NCBI GenBank assembly: GCA_903863905.1
Contig: CAIPDT010000079.1
Span: 1 to 34,449 of the forward strand
Source of the DNA: an uncultured Methylococcaceae bacterium
Lineage (GTDB): Bacteria; Pseudomonadota; Gammaproteobacteria; Methylococcales; Methylomonadaceae
DNA length: 34,449 nucleotides
Reading direction: 5' to 3'
Shown here: positions 1,633 through 19,441 of the stretch, one piece after another
Position numbering within the stretch: position 1 is the stretch's first letter
How the letters are laid out: every line of letters starts with the position of its first letter
The notes under the pieces: generated by a model
The model's database searches: none
Told to the model about the DNA's origin: nothing
Seen by the model: only the letters and a program-made list of their open reading frames with translations
Program-made: the position numbers and the translations under genes

Positions 1633-1806
1633 TTAGTGATAGTCAAGATAATCGACAACATAAACATCGCCATCTTCAAATTTAAAAATGACTCGCCAAT
1701 TGGCCTGAACGGTAACGGCCAAAAAACCCGCCAGATTACCTTTTAAAGCGTGAAGTAGCAAGGCGGGTGAATCAATGTCAGTCATTACCTTGGCATCATT
1801 AAGAAT
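1633..1806 (-). pseudogene. HigB/RelE-type toxin, C-terminal remnant
   Basis: The minus strand ends at the TAA 1633-1635 with LLLHALKGNLAG, NWRVIFKFEDGDVYV and DYLDYH. These match the C-terminal half of HigB-type (plasmid maintenance killer) mRNA-interferase toxins, which read LHPLKG, GNWRITFRFEDGD and end near YxDYH. The normal N-terminal ~45 residues are absent, because a stop codon lies just upstream of about 1806, where the endonuclease gene ends in another frame. An in-frame ATG at 1785 would give only about 50 residues. No intact HigA antitoxin gene follows. I read this as a truncated toxin gene cut by arrival of the restriction cassette. Confidence 0.7.
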
Positions 1807-3205
1807 CTGACGATGCTACATCCACAAATTCAAATTGTTTGTATAGAGTATCCAGATGTTTGTGATTAACCCTAAATTGACTACGGCACTTGAGCCTTGG
1901 GTTTTGACAAGAAGCGTTTTGTAGCTTGATACCTGGATCATAAAACACTTTTCCCAAATGCATAGCAGAAAGAACCATTTCAAAACTCGTCCCCGTCCCC
2001 AGTTCTATATCTTTACCATAGTAATATTCAATTAAACTTGACTGAGTACGCCAAATACAGGGAATATAAACTGCTTGTGAGTGTTTCCTTTTCCAGTGAT
2101 CCATAAGTTTGGCAAAACTCCAACTGGCAGTAATATTATTTGAGCCATCTAGCAACACTATTGCGCCTGTTGCATCGGTAATAGCGGAATTTTCCGCATC
2201 AAAACCAACAAGTTGCATTGTTAAGTTAGTAAGGCTCTGACATTTCCCAACAATGTGTTTGCCTCCAAAATTCATTCGGTCTTCCTTACCACTTCTATCT
2301 GCATAACCGTAGGCTCTTACAAACGCTATTGCGCCCGAGGTGGCGTAATAACCACCATTAGGTTCTGGGGTCATTAAAGTTGTTAGCTTTGCTCCAACTC
2401 TTGGAAGTCTGGTAACCCCGAATTGTTTGACTTCCCAGCCTAGGTAATCAGGTTCTGCTATGCCATTTGGAGAGATACCCAACATTGCTTCCAGCGTATA
2501 ACCTCCACCATTAAGCGCATTGTATGGTGCAAACACACCATTTGAATTAAGTTTCCGACTGGTTATCCAACCCATGTTATGAATCTCAAGCAGCTTATGT
2601 ATAAGCGCCCCTCTCGTAGATTCTACAGGGCCAGCATGTTGAATATCCAGTTGCCAGATGACCTTACTGATTTTAATGAAATCTGCACTTGCAAGCTCAT
2701 TGGAAAGATTGTTTTCTGGTGTTACAAGATAGGCATAGATTGATTCATCATTTGCAACACCCATAATGAGCCATCTACCCTCACTACGACCTTGTTTATT
2801 TGGGTCCATCCATTTACTGGCATCTACTTTTGAGCTACGCAAAAACCCTGAAAATCTGACTTCAGGATACTGAGGGTAATAAATTAGTTTGGCGTGGGGA
2901 GCTTGGTAAATAGTGCCATCATCGCCAACCCAAGAAAATTTGAGAGAGGCTTGGTATTTAATTTTTCGATTGGGATCAGTCGTTTTCCCTGAATCGGAAG
3001 ATGATGCAGCTATTTCTCCTGTGGGGAGAAAAGGTAAATCCGTTAAATGACTTCCAAAATAAGGCTGATTCTTACTATTATCATTGCCGGTGAGTTTCTT
3101 TACATATATCTGGGATGCGCCTAGATCCTGCAAAATCCTGGTAACTTTTTCCAAGCTGATTACTTGTGATGATGGGGTGTCATACGTTCCCTGATTAGAT
3201 GCCAT
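1799..3205 (-). CDS. MvaI/BcnI-family type II restriction endonuclease
   Basis: This 468-residue protein probably cleaves unmodified DNA at a CCWGG- or CCSGG-like site. The catalytic segment is at about 235-270: GGGYTLEAMLGISPNG followed by EPDYLGWEVKQF, giving D253 and E258-x-K260, the D-x4-ExK arrangement of the MutH/MvaI/BcnI PD-(D/E)xK group. Further on, KLMDHWKRKHSQAVYIP is typical of this family. MvaI itself is about 245 residues, so the first ~195 residues form an extension of unknown role. The start is supported by AGAAGG 8 nt upstream. The gene is last in a minus-strand cassette after a DNA methyltransferase and a broken small gene. Its stop overlaps a toxin remnant, suggesting an insertion boundary. 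Family membership is fairly sure; the exact site is inferred. Confidence 0.85.
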   Translation of the reverse strand: MASNQGTYDTPSSQVISLEKVTRILQDLGASQIYVKKLTGNDNSKNQPYFGSHLTDLPFLPTGEIAASSSDSGKTTDPNRKIKYQASLKFSWVGDDGTIYQAPHAKLIYYPQYPEVRFSGFLRSSKVDASKWMDPNKQGRSEGRWLIMGVANDESIYAYLVTPENNLSNELASADFIKISKVIWQLDIQHAGPVESTRGALIHKLLEIHNMGWITSRKLNSNGVFAPYNALNGGGYTLEAMLGISPNGIAEPDYLGWEVKQFGVTRLPRVGAKLTTLMTPEPNGGYYATSGAIAFVRAYGYADRSGKEDRMNFGGKHIVGKCQSLTNLTMQLVGFDAENSAITDATGAIVLLDGSNNITASWSFAKLMDHWKRKHSQAVYIPCIWRTQSSLIEYYYGKDIELGTGTSFEMVLSAMHLGKVFYDPGIKLQNASCQNPRLKCRSQFRVNHKHLDTLYKQFEFVDVASSDS

Positions 3206-3296
3206 TAAAATAACCTTCTGAAATTTATTATGAATTAGTTAGACAGATAATCAAGCCCTTCCAAGTTTTGAAGCTCAACAATACGAAAAGTAACTA

Positions 3297-3572
3297 TTAA
3301 GCGTTCAGTTGTATATCCATGCACTTCATAAATGATGGATAGGCGGCTTCGTAAACTTCATTATCGAACTGACTGAACATTTGTGAAATAGTATTATCAA
3401 GCATTCCACATTCATCGTCTGTGAAAATTTTCTCGCCCGTGGCAATCGAAACTATTGTTTTTGGTGCATCGTCGGGATGAAAAAGAAGTCTACATGCTGA
3501 CATTTCAGAGAACTAAGTTAACATGCCGTCAAAGCTTTTATCGGTAAAATCAGGAATGCGTGATGAGTTCAT
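3297..3572 (-). pseudogene. Small gene between M and R, interrupted by an in-frame amber codon
   Basis: Starting at the ATG ending at 3572, preceded by AAGAAG, a 92-codon frame runs to the TAA at 3297-3299 but has TAG at codon 20 (3513-3515). The first piece reads MNSSRIPDFTDKSFDGMLT. The second piece can restart at the ATG ending at 3503 to give a 68-residue protein beginning MSACRLLFHPDDAP and rich in Asp/Glu. That restart has no Shine-Dalgarno sequence, whereas the upstream ATG has one, so I favour one gene with a nonsense mutation or a sequencing error. I do not recognise the family. It lacks the helix-turn-helix expected of a controller (C) protein. Its position suggests an accessory or immunity-like role in the restriction cassette, which is inference only. 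Confidence 0.55.
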
Positions 3573-3606
3573 AATTGTATCTTCTTAAAAAATAGTTGCT
3601 TAATAA

Positions 3607-4842
3607 TCAATGATTGATCTGATGAATCCTTGTTTTTTTAATAATTTTTGGTGCTACAATTCTTGCGACTTCCCGTATTACAGGCATTACAACACTGTTG
3701 CCGAATTGACGATATGCTTGTGTATCACTTACTGGTATCTGAAAGGTGTCAGGAAATCCCATAAGCCTTGCACATTCCCGAGGCGTCAACCGACGAGGGC
3801 GTTTGCTTTCTCCCTGAGAAACCAGTATTTCCGAGCCGTCCTTATGGTATCTGGCAGACAGGGTACGAGCTACACTATCTGCATCCACCAAACCAAAACC
3901 GAAACCATTACCAGCCGCACGATGTTTTGCGGCATAAGCCTGAAGATAAGTCCATAAATTGGCGGTTAAGGTGTATTTACTGTTAATAATAGCCTGCGTT
4001 CCGGTCGTGTAGGGTTCTTCTGGTGTTTCGCTGCCATCCTCTGGATGTAATATGCTGGACAGGCGAGGCCCGATGGCCGGTATTTGTAAATCATCCCACG
4101 AGAAATCAGTCTTGTCACGAAAGCCCATAATAATAATGCGTTCTCGATGCTGCGGTACAAAGCGCTGCCCGTCAATAACTTTATAATGCACCTCGTAGCC
4201 TAACTCATCCCGTAACGTTTGCAGGATCACTTTAAAGGTATTGCCTTTGTCGTGAGAAAGCAGATTTTTAACATTCTCCAACATAAATGCTTTAGGCTGT
4301 TTGGCGGCAATAATACGGGCAACATCAAAAAACAGCGTGCCTTGGGTCGCACATTCAAAACCATGCGGACGTCCCAAGGCATTTTTTTTGGACACACCGG
4401 CAATACTAAACGGTTGGCAAGGAAAGCCAGCCAGTAATATGTCGTGATTAGGTACGTCATTTTCATCAATAGTGGTTATGTCCCCGACAAAAACATGATC
4501 AGTATCGTGGGGGAAATTGGCTAAATAAGTTTTCTGAGAAAACGAATTCCATTCACTGGTAAACAAGCAATGCCCACCATGGGCTTCAAAGCCCAGCCGA
4601 ATGCCGCCAATCCCTGCGAACAAGTCTATAAAAGTAAAAGGGTGTTGGTTTATTGCGTCGGTATCAACCAAAGGCAATAAGCGCTGACGAATGGCATCAG
4701 CCAGATAGTGAGGCGGTTCGGTGTCACGAACTTCCCAGCGACGAACGGTGCGGACATCCACGCCAAGAAGAACGGCAATTTCATTCTGATTATAGCGAAC
4801 GCGAGCTTGTCGCAGTAAGTCGAGCGGTTGGAGCGAGTGCAT
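3607..4842 (-). CDS. DNA (cytosine-5) methyltransferase, Dcm/EcoRII type
   Basis: This 411-residue enzyme methylates cytosine C5 in DNA, probably CCWGG. Visible in order: an N-terminal helix-turn-helix (about 18-38, [19 protein letters not shown]), motif [11 protein letters not shown] (71-80), catalytic motif IV PCQPFS with C142, motif VI ENV (189-191), motif VIII QHRER (231-235), a target-recognition region including GNGFGFGLV and [17 protein letters not shown], motif [18 protein letters not shown], and motif X RQFGNSV. The recognition-region wording is very close to E. coli Dcm and M.EcoRII, which is why I propose CCWGG. In this subfamily the N-terminal extension can bind the gene's own promoter and repress it. 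It is the first gene of the minus-strand cassette; a weak AAGAAG precedes the ATG. Confidence 0.92.
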
Positions 4843-5895: not shown

Positions 5896-8800
5896 ATGAC
5901 TGATCTTCCCCATAAAACATCCACAAACAAATTCATTTCCAACCTAATGCTGGCCTCTTTGGTCGGTTTGAGTTTTATGGTTCTTAAAGAATATGTTCTG
6001 TGCATGGTTTGGGCAGTCATTATTGCGTATGTATTGTGGCCTATTTATCTAAGAGTTAAAATCCAGCTTGATCACAGAGATACGCTGAGTGCGCTAGTGA
6101 TGACCTTGGTCATCGCTATTATGGTCACGTTAAGTGTTTACTGGCTGATTAATCTATTACAAATAGAAATTAAAACCACTTATCAAACTGTCATAAACGA
6201 TTTTGATCCTAAAAAATATCAACTGAGTCATCTACTGGCTAACTACCCACGACTAAGCGCACTCACCCAAACGTGGACGTCTAAACTAAACCTTAATGTA
6301 AATGACGTGGTATCCCAATTTGGCTCGATAACACAACAAGGTCTTAGTGAATTTGCGCACGCACTTAATCACCTCAGTAGTAATCTTATAAAGTTCGGGA
6401 TTATTTTGGTCACTTTGTTTTTCTTCTTTCGTGATGGTAAAACGATCAATACACAATTACAACAAGGGTTACTGATTTTTCTAGGTCAATATCACGCCCC
6501 CTTTCTTGTAGCTATCACGGAAACCACCCGCGCTGTTGTGTATGGACTAATACTGGCTGCCTCTAGCCAAGGGTTTATGGCGGGAATTGGCTATTACTTA
6601 ACGGGCGTTAAAGCACCCGTACTCTTAGGGATAATAACGGCCCTTTTAGCCATGGTCCCAATGGGAGCAACCCTTGTTTGGTTACCTATTAGCGTTGGCC
6701 TTATATTACTTGGTCAAGTCGGTGCAGGCATCATTCTGTTAGTCTGGGGATTTTTAATCGTTAGTACGATTGATAATATTATTCGCCCCTTGGTGATCAG
6801 TGGTTCAACAGGCACGCCTCTTTTAGTTGTAATCTTAGGTGTACTCGGTGGACTGAACGCTTTCGGTATCATTGGACTTTTTTTAGGGCCTATTATCTTA
6901 GCCACTTTGCTAGCCGTTTGGAAAACCTGGTTAGGTCAACAAAAAGAAGCCAAGCTCTCAACCCCGGACATAATCCAACCGGTCTGGCATCAATTATCCA
7001 GCAGCGAGGCGCTAACCTTATTAACAACAGATTTAGAAAAAGGCTTAACAACGCAAGAAGTTAACGCACGATTAAAACACTATGGGCCTAATCAACTGCT
7101 TGAGAAGCCGACTCGGTCGATGTTTAGCTTATTCGTTGCTCAATTTAAAAGTGTCCTTATTTTAATATTGCTGCTTGCCGCCTTCTTAGCCGCTTGTATT
7201 GGGGATTTAAAAGACGGTATTGTCATTTTAGTCGTCGTAGTGATCAACGCCTTACTTGGTTTTTATCAAGAAAACAAAGCTGAGGTCTCTTTAACAGCGC
7301 TTAAACAAATGCTCACTCATCACAGTCATGTCCGCCGAGATGGGTTAAGTTGTGAAATCAATTCAGAGCAATTAGTCCCTGGTGATATTGTTATCCTAGA
7401 CGCTGGCAGTAAAATCCCTGCCGATGGACGCATCTTAAGTTCTCAGACCTTAGAAGTCGATGAATCTTCTTTAACGGGTGAATCCTGTCCAGTTCCAAAA
7501 TATCATCAAGCGATCAATAAAGAGACAACCGTATTGGCAGATCGTTATAACATGCTTTATATGAATAACACGGTGACACGGGGCAGAGCCGACATGTTGG
7601 TTACCGCAACGGGAATGGAAACAGAGATAGGTAAACTTGCTCAACTGTTATCCAGCACGGATGAACAACCGACCCCTCTGCAAATTCAACTCGATAGTTT
7701 AGGCAAGCGTCTTGTCATTTTTACAATCGGCATTATTAGCCTCCTGATTATCGCGGCACTTTGGCGAGGTGAACCTTTAATAGAAACACTGATGACCGCA
7801 ATTGCTTTAGCCGTTGCCGCTATTCCTGAAGGTTTGCCTGCCGTTGTCACGGTGACCTTAGCATTGGGCATGCACAGAATGGCAAAACAACAGGCCATCA
7901 TCAAACGCTTAGCGTCTGTAGAAACCTTGGGGTGTACCACAGTGATTTGTTCTGATAAAACCGGCACCTTAACGGTCAATCAAATGACTGTCAGAGCGCT
8001 CTTTTATAAGCAACAACACTATGTGGTGACGGGTGAAGGTTATGCCACAAAAGGCAGTATTTCTCCTATATTATCGACTGAAAACTTAACAGAACTTATC
8101 CTACCACTGGCGTTGTGCAATAACAGCCAATTACACAACCATAAAGTGCTAGGGGACCCTATGGAGGCGGCCTTATTAGTCTTAGTCGCTAAAACCCACC
8201 ATGACCCCCTTAAACTTAAACAAGCCTACCCAAGACTCGCTGAAATTCCGTTTGATGCCGCGCATAAATTTATGGCCAGCTTTCATCAAGTAGATGATCA
8301 TATAACAATCTTCATTAAAGGTGCCCCTGATGAGTTATTTAAACGCTGCCAAAATGCACTCTTTGATAAGCAACTAACCGCTTTTAAAGCGCATGATTTT
8401 ATAACGCAAAACGATTTAATGGCGGCCGAAGGTTTACGCGTCATCGCTGTGGCTACTCGCACCTTGCCTAAGTCTGTCACTGATTTAGAATCTAATCTAT
8501 TTCAATACATCAAAGATCTAACTTTGGTTGCACTCATTGGGCTAATTGACCCACCTAGAACAGAAGTATCTAGTGCTGTTGCCCTTTGTCAAAAAGCCGG
8601 TATTGCTATCAAAATGATCACTGGCGATCAAAAAGTCACCGCACAAGCCATCGCCCAAAAACTGGGGCTGAGTGGCAACGTGCTTGAAGGTGCCAAACTC
8701 ACTGATCTTAATGACCATGAGTTAGCCGATTGTATTGAAGATATTGGTATCTTTAGCCGCACTGGGCCGGACCAAAAAGCACGTATTATTAAAGCCCTTC

Positions 8801-9609
8801 AGGCTAATGGACACGTCGTGGCTATGACGGGGGATGGTGTTAATGATGCACCTGCCCTCAGAAATGCCGACATAGGCATTGCTATGGGGATCACTGGCAC
8901 CGATGTGGCGAAAGAAGCCTCTTCAATGATCTTAATGGATGACAATTTTGCCACTCTCGTGAAAGCCATCAAAGAGGGCCGCGGTATTTATGCCAACATG
9001 GTTAAATTTGTACGCTTTCAATTATCTACTAATATTGGTGCTATTTTAACAGTCGCTATTGCCCCTGCCTTAGGCTTACCAAACCCCTTTACGGCCATAC
9101 AACTACTGTGGATTAATATCATTATGGATGGCCCTCCTGCAATATCATTAGGTATGGATCCAACCCGAAATACCATCATGAATGAGAAACCGCGAGACCC
9201 TAAAACTCGTATACTAACGATAAACCGCATGATTGATCTATTTTTATATGGTCTCAATATGGCAATAGGTACCTTAGGAGTGTTATATTATGATTTACAG
9301 TATGAAACGCCACAACATGCCACAACCTTAGCGTTTACCACGTTTGTCTGCTTTCAAATATTTAATGTGTTTAATGCAAGATCTGAGAACCACAGTATTT
9401 TTACTCATTACTTCTTTGTTAATAAAATACTTTGTTTAGCCATTATGGCTATCATTTCATTACAAATTGTCGTTGTTTATTGGCCCGAAGCTCAAGATTT
9501 ATTTAACACAACGTCTCTTTCGGTAATAGACTGGTTAATAGCGATTAGTGTGGCTTCTTCTATTGTAATTTTTGATGAAATCAAAAAACTAATACGTCAT
9601 CCAAGCTAA
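5896..9609 (+). CDS. Fusion: AI-2E/YdiK-type permease + Pmr1-like P-type Ca/Mn ATPase
   Basis: This is one uninterrupted 1237-residue frame. Residues about 15-345 are an AI-2E-family permease (several membrane helices, FFFRDGKT, then DNIIRPLVISG and GGLNAFGIIGLFLGP). A short linker leads at about 364 to a complete P2-type ATPase: actuator loop SLTGES (T527-S530), transmembrane PEGL (E645), phosphorylation site SDKTGTLT (D687), hinge TGDGVNDAP (D980, D984), and M6 sequence NIIMDGPPAISLG (N1074, D1078), then four C-terminal helices. NxxMDGPPAxSLG is the signature of Pmr1/SPCA-type Ca2+/Mn2+ pumps, which keep one ion site. It should sit in the inner membrane and extrude divalent cations, with an unknown contribution from the permease half. 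The linker has no stop codon or obvious internal start. pgaBCD follow. Confidence 0.9.
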   Translation: MTDLPHKTSTNKFISNLMLASLVGLSFMVLKEYVLCMVWAVIIAYVLWPIYLRVKIQLDHRDTLSALVMTLVIAIMVTLSVYWLINLLQIEIKTTYQTVINDFDPKKYQLSHLLANYPRLSALTQTWTSKLNLNVNDVVSQFGSITQQGLSEFAHALNHLSSNLIKFGIILVTLFFFFRDGKTINTQLQQGLLIFLGQYHAPFLVAITETTRAVVYGLILAASSQGFMAGIGYYLTGVKAPVLLGIITALLAMVPMGATLVWLPISVGLILLGQVGAGIILLVWGFLIVSTIDNIIRPLVISGSTGTPLLVVILGVLGGLNAFGIIGLFLGPIILATLLAVWKTWLGQQKEAKLSTPDIIQPVWHQLSSSEALTLLTTDLEKGLTTQEVNARLKHYGPNQLLEKPTRSMFSLFVAQFKSVLILILLLAAFLAACIGDLKDGIVILVVVVINALLGFYQENKAEVSLTALKQMLTHHSHVRRDGLSCEINSEQLVPGDIVILDAGSKIPADGRILSSQTLEVDESSLTGESCPVPKYHQAINKETTVLADRYNMLYMNNTVTRGRADMLVTATGMETEIGKLAQLLSSTDEQPTPLQIQLDSLGKRLVIFTIGIISLLIIAALWRGEPLIETLMTAIALAVAAIPEGLPAVVTVTLALGMHRMAKQQAIIKRLASVETLGCTTVICSDKTGTLTVNQMTVRALFYKQQHYVVTGEGYATKGSISPILSTENLTELILPLALCNNSQLHNHKVLGDPMEAALLVLVAKTHHDPLKLKQAYPRLAEIPFDAAHKFMASFHQVDDHITIFIKGAPDELFKRCQNALFDKQLTAFKAHDFITQNDLMAAEGLRVIAVATRTLPKSVTDLESNLFQYIKDLTLVALIGLIDPPRTEVSSAVALCQKAGIAIKMITGDQKVTAQAIAQKLGLSGNVLEGAKLTDLNDHELADCIEDIGIFSRTGPDQKARIIKALQANGHVVAMTGDGVNDAPALRNADIGIAMGITGTDVAKEASSMILMDDNFATLVKAIKEGRGIYANMVKFVRFQLSTNIGAILTVAIAPALGLPNPFTAIQLLWINIIMDGPPAISLGMDPTRNTIMNEKPRDPKTRILTINRMIDLFLYGLNMAIGTLGVLYYDLQYETPQHATTLAFTTFVCFQIFNVFNARSENHSIFTHYFFVNKILCLAIMAIISLQIVVVYWPEAQDLFNTTSLSVIDWLIAISVASSIVIFDEIKKLIRHPS

Positions 9610-9710
9610 GTTCTATGGCGTTTATTGATCGGCAATATGGAACTTATAGTGCCATTAAACTGACTAAGTGTCTTTTAACCTCATTTAATTTTTCTTTTGT
9701 AACTCATTAC

Positions 9711-11654
9711 ATGACTCTTTTCTTTGCTAATCAACTTTTCAAGCTTTTAAAAACAATAGCTTTGGGTATTTGTCTGCTCTGCTTTATTAGCATTGCTTCA
9801 GCTCAAGAATCTAGCTTTTTAGTGCTTAACTATCACGACATTATCGACGACAAAAAAGAAACAGACGATGCAGTTGATTTAAAACAAAAGAACTTTGCAG
9901 ACCAATTACAGTGGTTAAAAACCAATCACTACACCGTCATTAGTGTGCAACAAATATTTGACGCCGCCGCCGGTAAAACTACTTTACCCGCTAAAGCTGT
10001 AGCCCTCACTTTTGATGATGGCTATGAAAGTTTTTACACCCGTGCGTTACCGCTACTTAAGAAATATAAATATCCTGCGACGGTTTCCCTGGTCGGTAGT
10101 TGGATGAGTGAAAACTCTGACGAGGATAATAAACCTAAAAAAGCACTCATGACTTGGGCTCAGATTAAAGAACTCACTGAGTCGGGTTTAATAGAAATCG
10201 CCTCGCATAGTTATGACTTACATCGAGGTATTTTAGGAAACCCTCAAGGTAATACGCAAGCAGCGGCAGTCACCAGACTCTACGATGACCCCATGTTGAT
10301 TTACGAATCAAGCCTTGATTATCAGGAAAGGGTTCAAAATGATCTTATAAAAAGTTCGGAACATATCTTTCAGCACGCCGGCGTCAGGCCTCGGGTCATG
10401 GTCTGGCCTTATGGCGAATACAATCAACTCACGCTGATGGCCGCTCGTAAAGCCGGCATGCCAATGACGATGGGTCTAATCGATGGCACTAATACCCTAG
10501 CAGATATTGATCACTTAAAACGCTTATTGATTGCCTACGATCCTGATGTCAAAGAGTTTGCCAAGATTGTCTCAAACCTAAGAGCGGATAGACCGTTACG
10601 AGTTGCCCATATAGACCTAGATTATTTATACGACTCTACGCCCGCACAACTCGCACATAATATAGATATAGAGATTGAACGTATTAGAGATATGCACATT
10701 ACGACAGTGTATTTACAAGCGTATGCCGATCCAGATGGGGATGGTAATGCAGATGCACTATACTTTCCTAATCGACATTTACCCGTTAAAGCCGATTTAT
10801 TTAATCGAGTGGCTTGGCAATTAAAAAAAATTGCTAATGTACGCGTCTACGCTTGGATGCCGATATTAGCCTATCAAGAAAGTGATATTCCGAAAACGTG
10901 GTATGTTCAAGAATGGCGAGACGGTAAACCTCAAAGTGCCAGTCATATTTACACGCGCTTATCACCTTTTAACCCTGAAGCGCGTCAATATATTACCGAT
11001 ATTTATGAAGACTTAGCCATTCATTGTAACTTTGATGGTCTATTATTTCATGATGATGGTATCTTATCCGATTTTGAAGATGTCTCACCGTTAGCCCTAG
11101 AATATGGCCGAGAAGTATGGGGACTCTCAACAGACTTTAATGTATTACATAAAGACCCTAAACTCAGTTTACGTTGGGCGAAGCACAAAACTGAGTTTAT
11201 CAATCAATTTACCGATGACTTAACGAATCGTGTTCGATTTTATAGGCCGGGTATTAAAACGGCCCGAAACTTTTATTCTTATCCGTTACTTAAACCTTAT
11301 AGTGAAGAATGGTTTGCCCAATCTTTTGACTCCTTTTTAGCCCATTATGATTATGTGGCGATAGAAGCGATGCCGTTTATGGAAGAAGCTTCAAACCCAA
11401 CTGAATGGTTAACTGACTTAGTTAAAAAGGCCGCAACCTACCCGAACGGCCTAGAAAAAACAGTGTTTGAATTACAAACAGTGGATTGGCGAAACTCTCA
11501 AAAAATCCCTATGGACACCTTTCTCGGACAAGTGAGTTTATTACAAAAACTGGGCGCTAAACATTTAGGCTATTACCCCGATAATGTGTTTGATAATCAA
11601 CCTAACTTAAAAGACTTACAAACTAAATTTACAGTCCCTACCTCTCTTAATTAA
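9711..11654 (+). CDS. pgaB: Poly-beta-1,6-N-acetylglucosamine N-deacetylase PgaB
   Basis: This periplasmic enzyme partly de-N-acetylates PNAG and helps its export. The frame is open from an ATG at 9615, but I start at 9711 because the 647-residue product then begins with a proper signal peptide (hydrophobic to ASA at 29-31, with cleavage before Q32). No Shine-Dalgarno sequence distinguishes the two. The deacetylase domain (about 35-300) has YHD at 41-43, TFDDGYE with D102/D103, and SHSYDLH with H166 and H171, matching the E. coli PgaB Asp-His-His metal site. The C-terminal part (about 310-640: HIDLDYLYD, YLQAYAD, FDGLLFHDDG) is the glycoside-hydrolase-like PgaB domain that binds and cuts the polymer. 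E. coli PgaB is a lipoprotein; no clear lipobox is seen here. pgaC and pgaD follow. Confidence 0.92.
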   Translation: MTLFFANQLFKLLKTIALGICLLCFISIASAQESSFLVLNYHDIIDDKKETDDAVDLKQKNFADQLQWLKTNHYTVISVQQIFDAAAGKTTLPAKAVALTFDDGYESFYTRALPLLKKYKYPATVSLVGSWMSENSDEDNKPKKALMTWAQIKELTESGLIEIASHSYDLHRGILGNPQGNTQAAAVTRLYDDPMLIYESSLDYQERVQNDLIKSSEHIFQHAGVRPRVMVWPYGEYNQLTLMAARKAGMPMTMGLIDGTNTLADIDHLKRLLIAYDPDVKEFAKIVSNLRADRPLRVAHIDLDYLYDSTPAQLAHNIDIEIERIRDMHITTVYLQAYADPDGDGNADALYFPNRHLPVKADLFNRVAWQLKKIANVRVYAWMPILAYQESDIPKTWYVQEWRDGKPQSASHIYTRLSPFNPEARQYITDIYEDLAIHCNFDGLLFHDDGILSDFEDVSPLALEYGREVWGLSTDFNVLHKDPKLSLRWAKHKTEFINQFTDDLTNRVRFYRPGIKTARNFYSYPLLKPYSEEWFAQSFDSFLAHYDYVAIEAMPFMEEASNPTEWLTDLVKKAATYPNGLEKTVFELQTVDWRNSQKIPMDTFLGQVSLLQKLGAKHLGYYPDNVFDNQPNLKDLQTKFTVPTSLN

Positions 11655-11713
11655 AATCAGCACACTAGAACACGTTTATTCCATAGAAACTTAAATAACT
11701 AACGCAATTGAAC

Positions 11714-13042
11714 ATGACTTTTAACCTCCAAGACGGGTTTAACTATCTTCAAACACACTGGCACACTCTGGTCAGTTTATGGGCACCCATTGATGCCAAT
11801 CTTGAAGGGTTTATTTATTATTACCCTTTGTTCATGGCTTATGTCTGGATGTTTGGCGCGTTGATATTTTATTTTAGATTTGAATGGCATAACACCGGTG
11901 ACTCCGAACACTTACCGCAATTATCCGAATACCCGCCCGTTTCGATTTTAATTCCTTGTTACAACGAAGCCGCCAATATTCGTGAAACCATTGATATATT
12001 GCTGCATCAAAAATATCCAAACTATGAAATTATCGCTATCAATGATGGCAGTAAAGACAATACCCTTGAGATTTTACAAGAACTAGCGGCGCAACACAAA
12101 AAACTCCGGGTGGTTAATTTGCATACCAATCAAGGTAAAGCGATGGGGCTTCGTGCGGGGGCTTTAATTGCCAAAAGTGAATACTTAATTTGTATTGATG
12201 GGGATGCGCTGTTGGCTCCAGAAGCTTGTGCATGGATGGTTAAACACTTTCTGGATAATCCTAAAGTCGGTGCGGTAACCGGCAACCCTCGTATCCGTAA
12301 TCGTTCCACTTTGTTAGGCCGTATCCAAGTGGGTGAGTTTTCTGCCATTGTCGGCATGATTAAACGGGCGCAACGGTCTTACGGACAAATATTTACTGTC
12401 TCAGGTGTCATTGCTGCGTTTCGTAAATCGGCACTGCATCAAGTCGGGTATTGGAGTAATGATATGGTCACGGAAGACATTGATATCAGTTGGAAACTGC
12501 AATTGGCTGGCTGGACTATTTACTTTGAACCCAATGCTTTATGTTGGGTTTTAATGCCCGAAACCTTAGACGGTCTTTGGAAACAAAGAGCCCGTTGGGC
12601 ACAAGGTGGTACAGAAGTGTTGTTACGCTATTTTAATAAACTATTTCGGTGGTCTTCACGCGGCATGTGGTTGTTATATACAGAATGTCTTATTAGTGTC
12701 ATCTGGGCTTTTTTAATCTTGATGCATCTACTCTTTACCCCATTCGAATTACTCACTGAATCGACCAATCAATCTTTACACGATTTAAGCCCCAGTTGGA
12801 CCAGTATGCTATTAAGCCTGACCTGCTTAATTCAATTTGGGGTTAGTTTATTTATAGACTCCCGTTACGAAGCCAAAACCGGTGGAGTAGCAAAATACTA
12901 TTATTGGATGGTTTGGTATCCTATTGTGTATTGGTTAATGAACGTAGGCACCACCATTTTTGGCTCACTAAAAGCCATCCGTAAAAAACGTGGCCAACGC
13001 GCTATTTGGGTGACCGTGGATAGAGGCTTAAGACAAAAATGA
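11714..13042 (+). CDS. pgaC: Poly-beta-1,6-N-acetylglucosamine synthase PgaC
   Basis: This inner-membrane family-2 glycosyltransferase polymerises UDP-GlcNAc into PNAG. The 442-residue product from ATG 11714 is the same size as E. coli PgaC (441); an in-frame TTG at 11708 is a less likely start. Two N-terminal helices are followed by the GT-A domain: PVSILIPCYNEA, NDGS (D111), IDGD (D162, D164), TED (253-255, catalytic base) and QRARW (291-295, the processive-synthase motif). Three C-terminal helices complete the channel. It needs PgaD, encoded immediately after with a 4-bp overlap. In E. coli, PgaC/PgaD activity depends on cyclic-di-GMP; no such control can be read from this sequence. Confidence 0.95.
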   Translation: MTFNLQDGFNYLQTHWHTLVSLWAPIDANLEGFIYYYPLFMAYVWMFGALIFYFRFEWHNTGDSEHLPQLSEYPPVSILIPCYNEAANIRETIDILLHQKYPNYEIIAINDGSKDNTLEILQELAAQHKKLRVVNLHTNQGKAMGLRAGALIAKSEYLICIDGDALLAPEACAWMVKHFLDNPKVGAVTGNPRIRNRSTLLGRIQVGEFSAIVGMIKRAQRSYGQIFTVSGVIAAFRKSALHQVGYWSNDMVTEDIDISWKLQLAGWTIYFEPNALCWVLMPETLDGLWKQRARWAQGGTEVLLRYFNKLFRWSSRGMWLLYTECLISVIWAFLILMHLLFTPFELLTESTNQSLHDLSPSWTSMLLSLTCLIQFGVSLFIDSRYEAKTGGVAKYYYWMVWYPIVYWLMNVGTTIFGSLKAIRKKRGQRAIWVTVDRGLRQK

Positions 13043-17834: not shown

Positions 17835-18371
17835 TTATTGGATTAATCCCAACTCTCTAGCACCATGATCATTAAGAACTTTGACTGAGGTTGGCGATAA
17901 GTTCCAGATTTTAACCGTTGGTTTTAGTGATATTTTAAGTGCCTCTTGCAATGGTGATAACCATGCTTCATCGTGACCATTAATAATCAAAACAAGATTA
18001 AAACTTACGATCGACATATTCGTTCCTTGAAAAGCATTAGAAAGTTCAGGCTCAATAAGCTGTCTTTTTAAATAACAAGCTAAAAACAACGACAAGCTAT
18101 TACTAAGTTTTTCTCTAATCTCCTTAATATAGCCATCGAAATCTATTTGATTATTAGGTTGTGGTGAACTTGACTTTGCCTCTATAACCCAAATGATCGG
18201 CAATTCATTTTCTAGTGTTAATAATAAAAACTCTGCAATTTGTACACCTTCGGATTTCCTAGCATTCTTATTAATTTTATCAACAACCGCACATTTCTCA
18301 ATATAAAAACAATGTCCATCGGGATATGGACCAAAAGTCATGCCGGACTCCATAATCGGTTCCGTACTCAT
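17835..18371 (-). CDS. Putative PD-(D/E)xK-like partner of the adjacent AAA ATPase
   Basis: I do not recognise this 178-residue protein as a named family. Near the N-terminus it has HCFYIEKCAVVDKIN, then GVQIAEFLLLTLE with E47 and, after a hydrophobic strand, IIWVIEAKSS with E64-A-K66. An acidic residue in a strand/helix followed by strand-ExK is the layout of PD-(D/E)xK nucleases, so a DNA- or RNA-cutting role is plausible but unproven. A second hydrophobic strand, FNLVLIINGHDE, lies at about 124-135. The start codon overlaps the ATPase stop (ATGA), which implies coupled translation and a joint function. The pair lies inside the cysD-cysN unit, where it does not belong metabolically; a defence cassette is my inference. 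Confidence 0.6.
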   Translation of the reverse strand: MSTEPIMESGMTFGPYPDGHCFYIEKCAVVDKINKNARKSEGVQIAEFLLLTLENELPIIWVIEAKSSSPQPNNQIDFDGYIKEIREKLSNSLSLFLACYLKRQLIEPELSNAFQGTNMSIVSFNLVLIINGHDEAWLSPLQEALKISLKPTVKIWNLSPTSVKVLNDHGARELGLIQ

Positions 18372-19441
18372 CTACCAAGACCTACTTCTTCTTTGTATAA
18401 CCGAATCGACTCATCAATAATAGCATTTTCAGGCATTTCATCCAATAAATCCGATTGTTGCCAAGCATCACCCTCTTTTGAAAGCACCGGAATGGATAGC
18501 TTGTTCTCCTGAGCAATCAGAAATAATTTTTTAATAACAAAATAAGAATGGCTTGCTATAAAAAATTGAATGCCGTGCTTGGCAAGGATAGCGATAATAT
18601 CAAGGAGTTTGGCTATAGCTTCGGGATGTAAGTTTGATTCTGGTTCATCGATAAAAACAATTGAATCTTCATCTAATTGTCCGTTACCCAACAACGTATC
18701 AAGAATGGCAATTTTTTTTATGCCTTCGGCGGTTACACCTATTGAGAAACGTTGTTTTCCTTTTTTGTAATACCAGCGTTTTTCGATTTCATCATATTCT
18801 ATTTTTCCGTCAATTAAGTTTTCTAAAAGTTGACGTGATTTTTTAAAGTCGTCGGAGTTATAACCTTTTATGGGATTTTGATGTTCACTAATAGATGCAC
18901 CTTTTTTTTCAAATTTGTTCAAAAAACCATCAAACTCGCTAATTATTAAAGCTTTTGCTAGATCAAAATAAGTATCATCAAACCCAAAAATCTTACGACT
19001 CTGTCGTGCTTCTAAAATAATTTGATGTATCGAAAGAACTTCTTTGGCTGGCAAAAAGATAGAGTTGCTACTACGCGGGTCCACCTTGTTTTCTATAGAA
19101 TTAATTGCTTTTACAGTATCTTTTCCAAAAGAATAACTAAACTCTTGTTCATTAAGCATTAAACTAAAAAAAAGAGCGGCATCATTTTGTTTAGCAACTA
19201 AATCACCTATCTTTTCTGACTGAAAAGTCCAATACAACTTACCTTTTAAAATATCTGTGACGCTGTCTGGATTATCTCCACGCTTATAATCTTCCAAAGT
19301 TCGCACTGCGCTGTACAATGCTTTAAGCAAAAACGATTTACCACAGCCATTATTACCAATAATGAGATTGATTTTACCCAAATTTTGCCAATCTAATTGT
19401 TTTATTGGCCCAAAGTTTTTAAGCTCAGCACGGTTAATCAT
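18368..19441 (-). CDS. AAA (ABC/OLD-type) ATPase
   Basis: This 357-residue ATPase is of the RecF/OLD/AAA_15-21 kind. It opens AELKNFGPIKQLDW, typical of these proteins, with Walker A GNNGCGKS at 29-36, a signature-like VTAEGIKKIAIL (236-247), Walker B SIVFIDEPESNLHPE with D266/E267, and a switch histidine in FFIASHSY (H298). No TOPRIM nuclease domain follows, unlike true OLD proteins. Such stand-alone ATPases are commonly paired with a nuclease in anti-phage systems (for example Septu PtuA with PtuB, or PARIS AriA with AriB), but its partner here does not look like either. It starts 3 bp after the cysD stop and overlaps the next gene by ATGA. The base composition looks more AT-rich than cysD and cysN, consistent with insertion. 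Confidence 0.85.
   Translation of the reverse strand: MINRAELKNFGPIKQLDWQNLGKINLIIGNNGCGKSFLLKALYSAVRTLEDYKRGDNPDSVTDILKGKLYWTFQSEKIGDLVAKQNDAALFFSLMLNEQEFSYSFGKDTVKAINSIENKVDPRSSNSIFLPAKEVLSIHQIILEARQSRKIFGFDDTYFDLAKALIISEFDGFLNKFEKKGASISEHQNPIKGYNSDDFKKSRQLLENLIDGKIEYDEIEKRWYYKKGKQRFSIGVTAEGIKKIAILDTLLGNGQLDEDSIVFIDEPESNLHPEAIAKLLDIIAILAKHGIQFFIASHSYFVIKKLFLIAQENKLSIPVLSKEGDAWQQSDLLDEMPENAIIDESIRLYKEEVGLGR

Follow-up and report, generated by a model that had tools for sequence, protein, structure and literature searches.

Introduction

The closest described relatives of the gene reported here are the P2A Ca2+-ATPases human SPCA1 (ATP2C1), yeast Pmr1 and Listeria LMCA1 on one side, and the E. 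coli proteins YdiK and TqsA of the AI-2E family on the other. The gene lies at positions 5896..9609 of a 34,449-nucleotide stretch of DNA from an uncultured Methylococcaceae bacterium. This stretch (the window) is the entire contig CAIPDT010000079.1 and part of a 2.79-Mb genome. In the encoded protein, an AI-2E permease runs into a P-type ATPase in a single chain. The likeness to YdiK and TqsA extends over the entire permease half, and the likeness to SPCA1, Pmr1 and LMCA1 over the entire ATPase half. However, these pumps are without the 345-residue permease that precedes the window ATPase, and while YdiK and TqsA are single-domain proteins, the C-terminus of the window permease continues into the ATPase.

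Among P-type ATPases with an additional unit, KdpFABC resembles the fusion in its working, being a P-type pump with a transport-type membrane partner (the channel-like KdpA), but it belongs to another ATPase class, uses another partner family and gene layout, and is made of separate chains. In the apicomplexan P4-ATPase-guanylate cyclase fusions, a P-type ATPase is joined to another complete unit, but the ATPase class is again different and an enzyme takes the place of the permease. The original prediction, made from the sequence of the window, stated that no characterised protein is known to have the architecture found here. This agrees with the open-licence literature searched (including the accessible part of PMC3924187), in which we found no published account of an AI-2E/P-type ATPase fusion, a result that cannot show absence from print. 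For the AI-2E family, differing functions have been reported, namely export of autoinducer-2 (AI-2) and Na+/H+ antiport, according to the accessible part of PMC7221264.

Results

The features of the fused gene are as follows.

5896..9609, + strand: fused gene, a single frame from the ATG at 5896 to the stop codon at 9607-9609, 1237 residues
5947..6930, + strand: AI-2E permease domain, residues 18-345 (Pfam PF01594, 131.4 bits with a cut-off of 34.3, model positions 7-326 of 327)
6931..6984, + strand: linker, residues 346-363 (about 18 residues), stop-free by translation and alignment
6985..7188, + strand: Cation_ATPase_N, residues 364-431 (Pfam)
7309..7890, + strand: E1-E2_ATPase actuator region, residues 472-665, with TGES at 527-530 (Pfam and alignment)
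7825..7839, + strand: PEGLP motif of transmembrane helix 4, residues 644-648, invariant in alignment A1 and aligning with human SPCA1
7954..7968, + strand: phosphorylation motif DKTGT, residues 687-691 (translation and alignment)
8830..8847, + strand: hinge motif GDGVND, residues 979-984 (translation and alignment)
9079..9594, + strand: Cation_ATPase_C, residues 1062-1233, with the transmembrane helix 6 motif INIIMDGPPA (Pfam and alignment)

Translation of the frame gave no internal stop codon in 5896-9609, and neither a stop nor a frameshift was seen in the assembled sequence near 6930-6990. A profile scan of the bacterium's own genome also placed PF01594 at 5947-6930. Pfam further matched Cation_ATPase at residues 739-820 and Hydrolase at residues 683-992, and every domain match passed the curated Pfam cut-off except that of the redundant haloacid dehalogenase (HAD) model PF12710. 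The ATPase half is a complete P2A ATPase of the SPCA/Pmr1-like kind (residues 364-1233), in which the TGES, DKTGT and GDGVND motifs and the E1-E2, P, N and C-terminal domains are all present. Thus, the frame and the Pfam matches bear out the prediction of one 1237-residue protein composed of a permease and a P2-type ATPase, with its domain bounds and catalytic motifs.

The join is shared by relatives. Within the genus, 15 of 35 genomes (its own included) gave a single, stop-free match over both halves, and the 15 proteins (window included) could be aligned end to end with 58-77% identity to the window protein; with 14 other full-length genus members carrying the join, the homologues are not always two genes. 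Within the family, complete or nearly complete matches across the permease and the ATPase were obtained in 39 of 237 genomes (its own included; rows judged by eye), and contig-edge pieces of fused appearance in 8 more. Among the 39, the ATPase half of G201 is interrupted by a stop, the match of G066 stops at query residue 1136, and that of G227 is partial, yet its gene is whole in locus L132. Named carriers include Methylobacter tundripaludum SV96, M. psychrophilus Z-0021, Candidatus M. titanis and a metagenome-assembled genome (MAG) of Crenothrix polyspora, and the same join occurs in isolate genomes and in MAGs of separate assemblies. Named close relatives place the window in a Methylococcales methanotroph. 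From the last-helix motif of the permease to the start of the ATPase domain there are 27 residues in the window protein, 24-35 in all 29 type-A proteins (the window protein among them; the fusion types are defined below), and 34 and 41 in two type-B proteins, a measure that covers types A and B, not the three type-C proteins. In wider scans, no match to both halves besides the window's own was among the matches listed for 369 genomes of a class sample and 299 genomes of a phylum sample (best two candidates per genome); long open frames round other P-type ATPases (e.g. in G773 and G641) also came up in these scans. Among 662 plasmid records with a match, the sole one covering at least 80% of the query holds two separate genes.

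In eight pairs of fused genes, the ratio of nonsynonymous to synonymous substitution rates (dN/dS) ranged from 0.07 to 0.26 in the permease part and from 0.05 to 0.16 in the ATPase part, with a synonymous distance of 1.8, close to saturation, for the pair of the window and L005. Purifying selection acts on both domains. TGES, DKTGT and PEGLP are each found in 34 of 34 fused proteins (window included), GDGVND in 33 of them (the exact form is absent from L035) and the helix 6 motif INIIMDG in 32, type B being without it. In the permease, the core residues D293, N294, R297 and P298 and the glycines of the last helices are invariant in alignment A2 (17 fused and 4 separate permeases). Taken together, the fusion is a genuine, conserved, single-chain arrangement in Methylococcales methanotrophs. 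An assembly artefact or a pseudogene read-through is refuted because the join recurs in independent assemblies, of isolates as well as MAGs; the similar linker length across relatives and the purifying selection on the fused genes also speak against an artefact, to which we assign practically no weight.

The permease half had been called YdiK-type. In a sequence search its nearest solved relative is indeed E. coli YdiK (7ot9, E 1.4e-25), but the cut-off of the YdiK equivalog model NF008216 was not reached (125.2 bits versus 305), so the name fits the nearest structure and not the equivalog. Two structure models were obtained, with mean predicted local distance difference test (pLDDT) scores of 63.3 and 51.5 from shallow alignments (21 and 16 rows); the full-length model is without residues 1-12 and 1213-1237, and the relative domain placement is not interpretable. 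The low-confidence permease model (mean pLDDT 63.3, predicted template modelling score 0.45) best matched YdiK 7ot9 (E 7.5e-5) and TqsA 7nb6 (E 9.3e-5), the sole structure matches with E < 0.001 for this poor model. The AI-2E family is widespread, with a match over the Pfam cut-off in 13 of 14 control genomes. Judged from its sequence, the window permease truly belongs to this family, whose core it retains.

Signature residues have been proposed for Na+/H+ antiporters of the AI-2E family (accessible parts of PMC7221264 and PMC5379678), and the former gives motif C of UPF0118 as DFiPIiGSI and motif D as IRRTVEPKVMG. At these places the window reads AMVPMGATL and TIDNIIRPLVISG, and the UPF0118 Na+(Li+)/H+ antiporter signature (the Asp of motif C and the R-R-E of motif D) is absent as judged by eye without an alignment.

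The ATPase half had been described as Pmr1-like. Its nearest solved relative is human SPCA1 (E about 1e-189), with Listeria LMCA1 at about 1e-178. Of 24 NCBIfam models matched, the PMR1-type Ca2+-ATPase model TIGR01522 was the best, and its cut-off was narrowly missed (789.6 versus 798.3); the likeness therefore stands for the nearest structure and falls just short of the formal assignment. The PMCA-type model TIGR01517 passed its cut-off (511.1 versus 507.05) but scored 278 bits under the PMR1 model, so it is not preferred. PEGLP and INIIMDGPPA of human SPCA1 align with the window motifs. Following MDGPPA, the window has I, the remaining type-A and type-C proteins have M or L, and SPCA1 has Q. 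That Q governs the choice of Mn2+ in Pmr1, and Mn2+ transport by the window protein is less sure because I stands in its place. Ca2+ export appears to be the likeliest activity of the ATPase because PEGLP and INIIMDG are kept and some relatives stand beside Na+/Ca2+ exchangers.

Three types of fusion were found. Type A, that of the window, joins a YdiK-like permease to a P2A ATPase of branch 1. In type C (G160, G162, G163), the permease is a distant AI-2E protein that scores about 130 bits with the type-A profile, and the branch-1 ATPase to which it is joined groups among stand-alone ATPases from other Proteobacteria. In type B (G069, G054), the permease is of the type-A kind and the ATPase comes from another P2A branch; that of G069 is sister to an unfused one. 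On the ATPase tree (FastTree, 145 rows, with L021, a probable fusion that starts at a contig edge, labelled unfused), the fused label changes 8 times, at least 6 of them by well-supported branches. A single clade of type-A fusions was not rejected on the family ATPase tree (approximately unbiased (AU) test, p 0.228). On the permease tree, fused and separate permeases interleave with 11 changes, at least 5 of which are forced by well-supported branches, and a single type-A clade was rejected (AU p 1e-10, for a group named after the tree was seen). The two trees thus disagree on a single origin and fit different numbers of type-A gains and losses. It seems that the fusion arose more than once.

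Unfused orthologues of the Methylococcales (n=12; e.g. L044 7824-10664) have an N-terminal leader with one hydrophobic helix, by eye, at the permease position. As a candidate relic of the permease this helix was rejected, since over the set it was no closer to the permease tail than to other permease windows.

Separate permease and ATPase genes adjoin in Gallionellaceae, Thiobacillus, Paraburkholderia and Rhizobium. The two genes are adjacent in L137 and, with the permease first, in L055 and L087. The ATPase comes first in L076, with 147 bases between the genes, and in the tandem of L214; in L204, from the same genus as L214, an ATPase remnant precedes the permease. The genes are about 1.8 kb apart in L068 and convergent in L119. 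On the Rhizobium plasmid pMK-3 the permease/ATPase pair has a 4-bp overlap, and on the Paraburkholderia plasmid pBN1 the two genes are divergent; the ATPases of pMK-3 and pBN1 score 752 and 782 bits with the branch-1 profile and are members of other P2A branches. On pMK-3 (L255 2252-9866), genes for a J-domain protein and a MerR regulator stand ahead of the pair and IS110 transposase genes lie on both sides; the opposite strand carries ATPase-like pieces in several frames, by appearance an eroded second ATPase.

Around 63 separate type-A-like permease loci (including L254, at a contig edge and probably fused), the commonest neighbour was one P-type ATPase cluster (8 of 63), followed by CNNM/CorC (7 of 63); any ATPase-like stretch was found at 11 of the 63, and a rough estimate of chance expectation for an ATPase neighbour is about 2 of 63, with related loci not independent. 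This estimate rests on ten family genomes with 7-18 P-type ATPase matches each. Three contig-edge permease fragments, in G165, G175 and G023, lie outside the DNA examined. Among the 190 family genomes without the fusion, 24 have a separate permease and an unfused ATPase, 12 the ATPase only, 35 the permease only and 119 neither (Fisher p 1.2e-6, kinship ignored; 24, 12, 34 and 120, p 1e-6, with G018 missed).

A Na_Ca_ex homologue was found at 10 of 69 unfused-ATPase loci (including two hand-added plasmid loci, L256, whose ATPase is of another branch, and L261; without them Na_Ca_ex is at 9 of 67 and AI-2E at 5 of 67) versus 1 of 45 controls. The controls are not random genome stretches: of 59 stretches that surround separate permeases in this family, they are those longer than 9 kb, and they amount to 610 kb versus 1095 kb for the unfused-ATPase loci. 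Pfam confirms Na_Ca_ex in 6 of the 10 loci and in the control one, L203, which carries a permease and an ATPase too. In 5 of the 10 loci, Na_Ca_ex ends 10-40 bases inside the ATPase open reading frame. On a Thiothrix plasmid, an unfused orthologue is clustered with calcium/sodium antiporter and nhaD genes.

At fused loci, CNNM/CorC is the commonest neighbour (6 of 18), next to type A in L025, L026, L027 and L038, type B in L125 and type C in L123; Pfam confirms 9 of the 13 cases overall, separate-permease loci included. Examples are L025 11734-13083, L210 5495-6817, L222 7773-9224 and L123 9460-10743. Standing beside all three fusion types and separate permeases, CNNM/CorC is a possible third partner. 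CNNM/CorC proteins are linked to Mg2+ export, so Mg2+ stays a possible substrate.

P2A ATPases were also seen in other fusions. In a Methylothermaceae MAG (L062 671-4603), a Na_H_Exchanger domain (residues 13-365) precedes an orthologous P2A ATPase in a frame of 1311 residues, at the same end as the permease. An orthologous ATPase of a Thiodictyon MAG (L098 170-3895) has a C-terminal OmpA domain, and a P2A ATPase of another branch (L121 4130-7792) has a C-terminal BrkB domain (PF03631) in one frame of 1221 residues.

Discussion

We propose, with a probability of about 0.5, that the ATPase is a divalent-cation export pump and that the permease is its tethered partner transporter. Like the SPCA and LMCA1 pumps, the ATPase would take up protons for the divalent cation that it moves out of the cytoplasm, in the likeliest case Ca2+ (Mn2+ or Mg2+ being possible). 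The permease would be an ion exchanger, a counter-ion path or a control element, and divalent-cation export would be locally tied to the movement of another cation, protons or a solute. In SERCA, the N-terminal segment belongs to the moving A domain. The short linker would connect the last permease helix to this cytoplasmic N-terminal segment of the ATPase, and mechanical or regulatory cross-talk between the halves may be possible. Because the solved YdiK 7ot9 was deposited as five chains, several pumps may be arranged round one oligomeric permease.

Since the N-terminus of P2 ATPases is cytoplasmic, the fusion implies a cytoplasmic C-terminus of the permease. This is opposite to the periplasmic placement of the UPF0118 C-terminus by PhoA that is given in the accessible part of PMC7221264.

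A partnership of the two proteins is favoured because the same two families are joined as several fusion types and gene layouts. As for the coupled function put forward in the original prediction, comparison across genomes speaks well for a partnership, and any particular transport coupling is inferred, on indirect evidence.

Several observations weigh against a tethered partner transporter. No ATPase-like stretch was found in the DNA examined round 52 of the 63 separate-permease loci, and the ATPase is absent from 4 of 6 AI-2E plasmid regions (the Cupriavidus region, which is unannotated, was checked by profile). No context is common to most fused loci. Na_Ca_ex was found near 0 of 16 fused loci, and Na+/H+ antiporters are not enriched near unfused ATPases (NhaD at 1 of 69 versus 3 of 45 controls, Na_H_Exchanger at 1 of 69 versus 0 of 45). 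UPF0118-type Na+/H+ antiport as the specific function of the permease was rejected on the absence, by eye, of both signature motifs. The BrkB and OmpA fusions show that the partners of the ATPase vary, and type B does not require a fresh fusion, since a type-A gene may have exchanged its ATPase half. Finally, L206 (genome G070) has a stop in the linker, an eroded ATPase and an open permease frame; here the permease is retained without its fused pump, a case of change by losing the ATPase half.

Alternatively, the permease might have no transport of its own in the fusion and serve the pump as a structural or regulatory subunit, comparable to a beta subunit, KdpF or phospholamban. The one-helix leader at the permease place in the 12 unfused Methylococcales orthologues and the diversity of partners (AI-2E, Na_H_Exchanger, BrkB, OmpA) are consistent with such a subunit. 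On the other hand, the AI-2E core (D293, N294, R297, P298 and the glycines) is kept and the dN/dS of the permease is similar to that of the ATPase, both beyond the needs of an anchor, and we consider this role doubtful, if the first to turn to among the alternatives. It could also be that the halves act independently and the fusion just secures co-expression and equal stoichiometry, with fission and fusion nearly neutral. Such neutrality would agree with the interleaving of fused and separate permeases, the rejection of a single clade on their tree, and the decay of the L206 fusion with its permease intact. However, several joinings, plus the neighbouring genes in Beta- and Alphaproteobacteria, are hard to explain without shared work, and we judge independent halves to be unlikely, ranking them after the subunit role.

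In a bolder version of the tethered-partner proposal, each subunit of an oligomeric AI-2E permease would carry one Ca2+-type ATPase, the cycle of which would directly drive or gate the permease, and P2A ATPases of Proteobacteria would more widely acquire partners among secondary cation transporters (AI-2E, Na+/H+ exchanger, Na+/Ca2+ exchanger, CNNM/CorC), by fusion or as neighbours. We regard this version as speculative and would place it below both alternatives. That the permease is repeatedly linked to a Ca2+-type pump, both physically and in the genome, hints strongly at the context in which the YdiK-like branch works. The fusion also offers a single-chain system for the joint study of primary and secondary transport, of which close relatives supply natural split and fused versions.

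Other genes of the window

Directly after the fusion, 9615-13042 (+) holds a gene for a polysaccharide deacetylase with a GHL13 domain and a glycosyltransferase gene, which we take to be pgaB-like and pgaC-like. This context, with a HAD-like gene before the fusion and the pgaB/pgaC-like genes after it, did not recur among the 18 other fused loci that were clustered. The two genes at 17835-19441 (-) match A (507 bits) and B (198 bits) of HEC-02, a candidate defence system of PADLOC, and are located between genes that are presumably cysN-like and cysD-like. At 1799-4842 (-), genes for an MvaI/BcnI-family restriction endonuclease and a C5-cytosine methyltransferase adjoin and likely form a type II restriction-modification pair.

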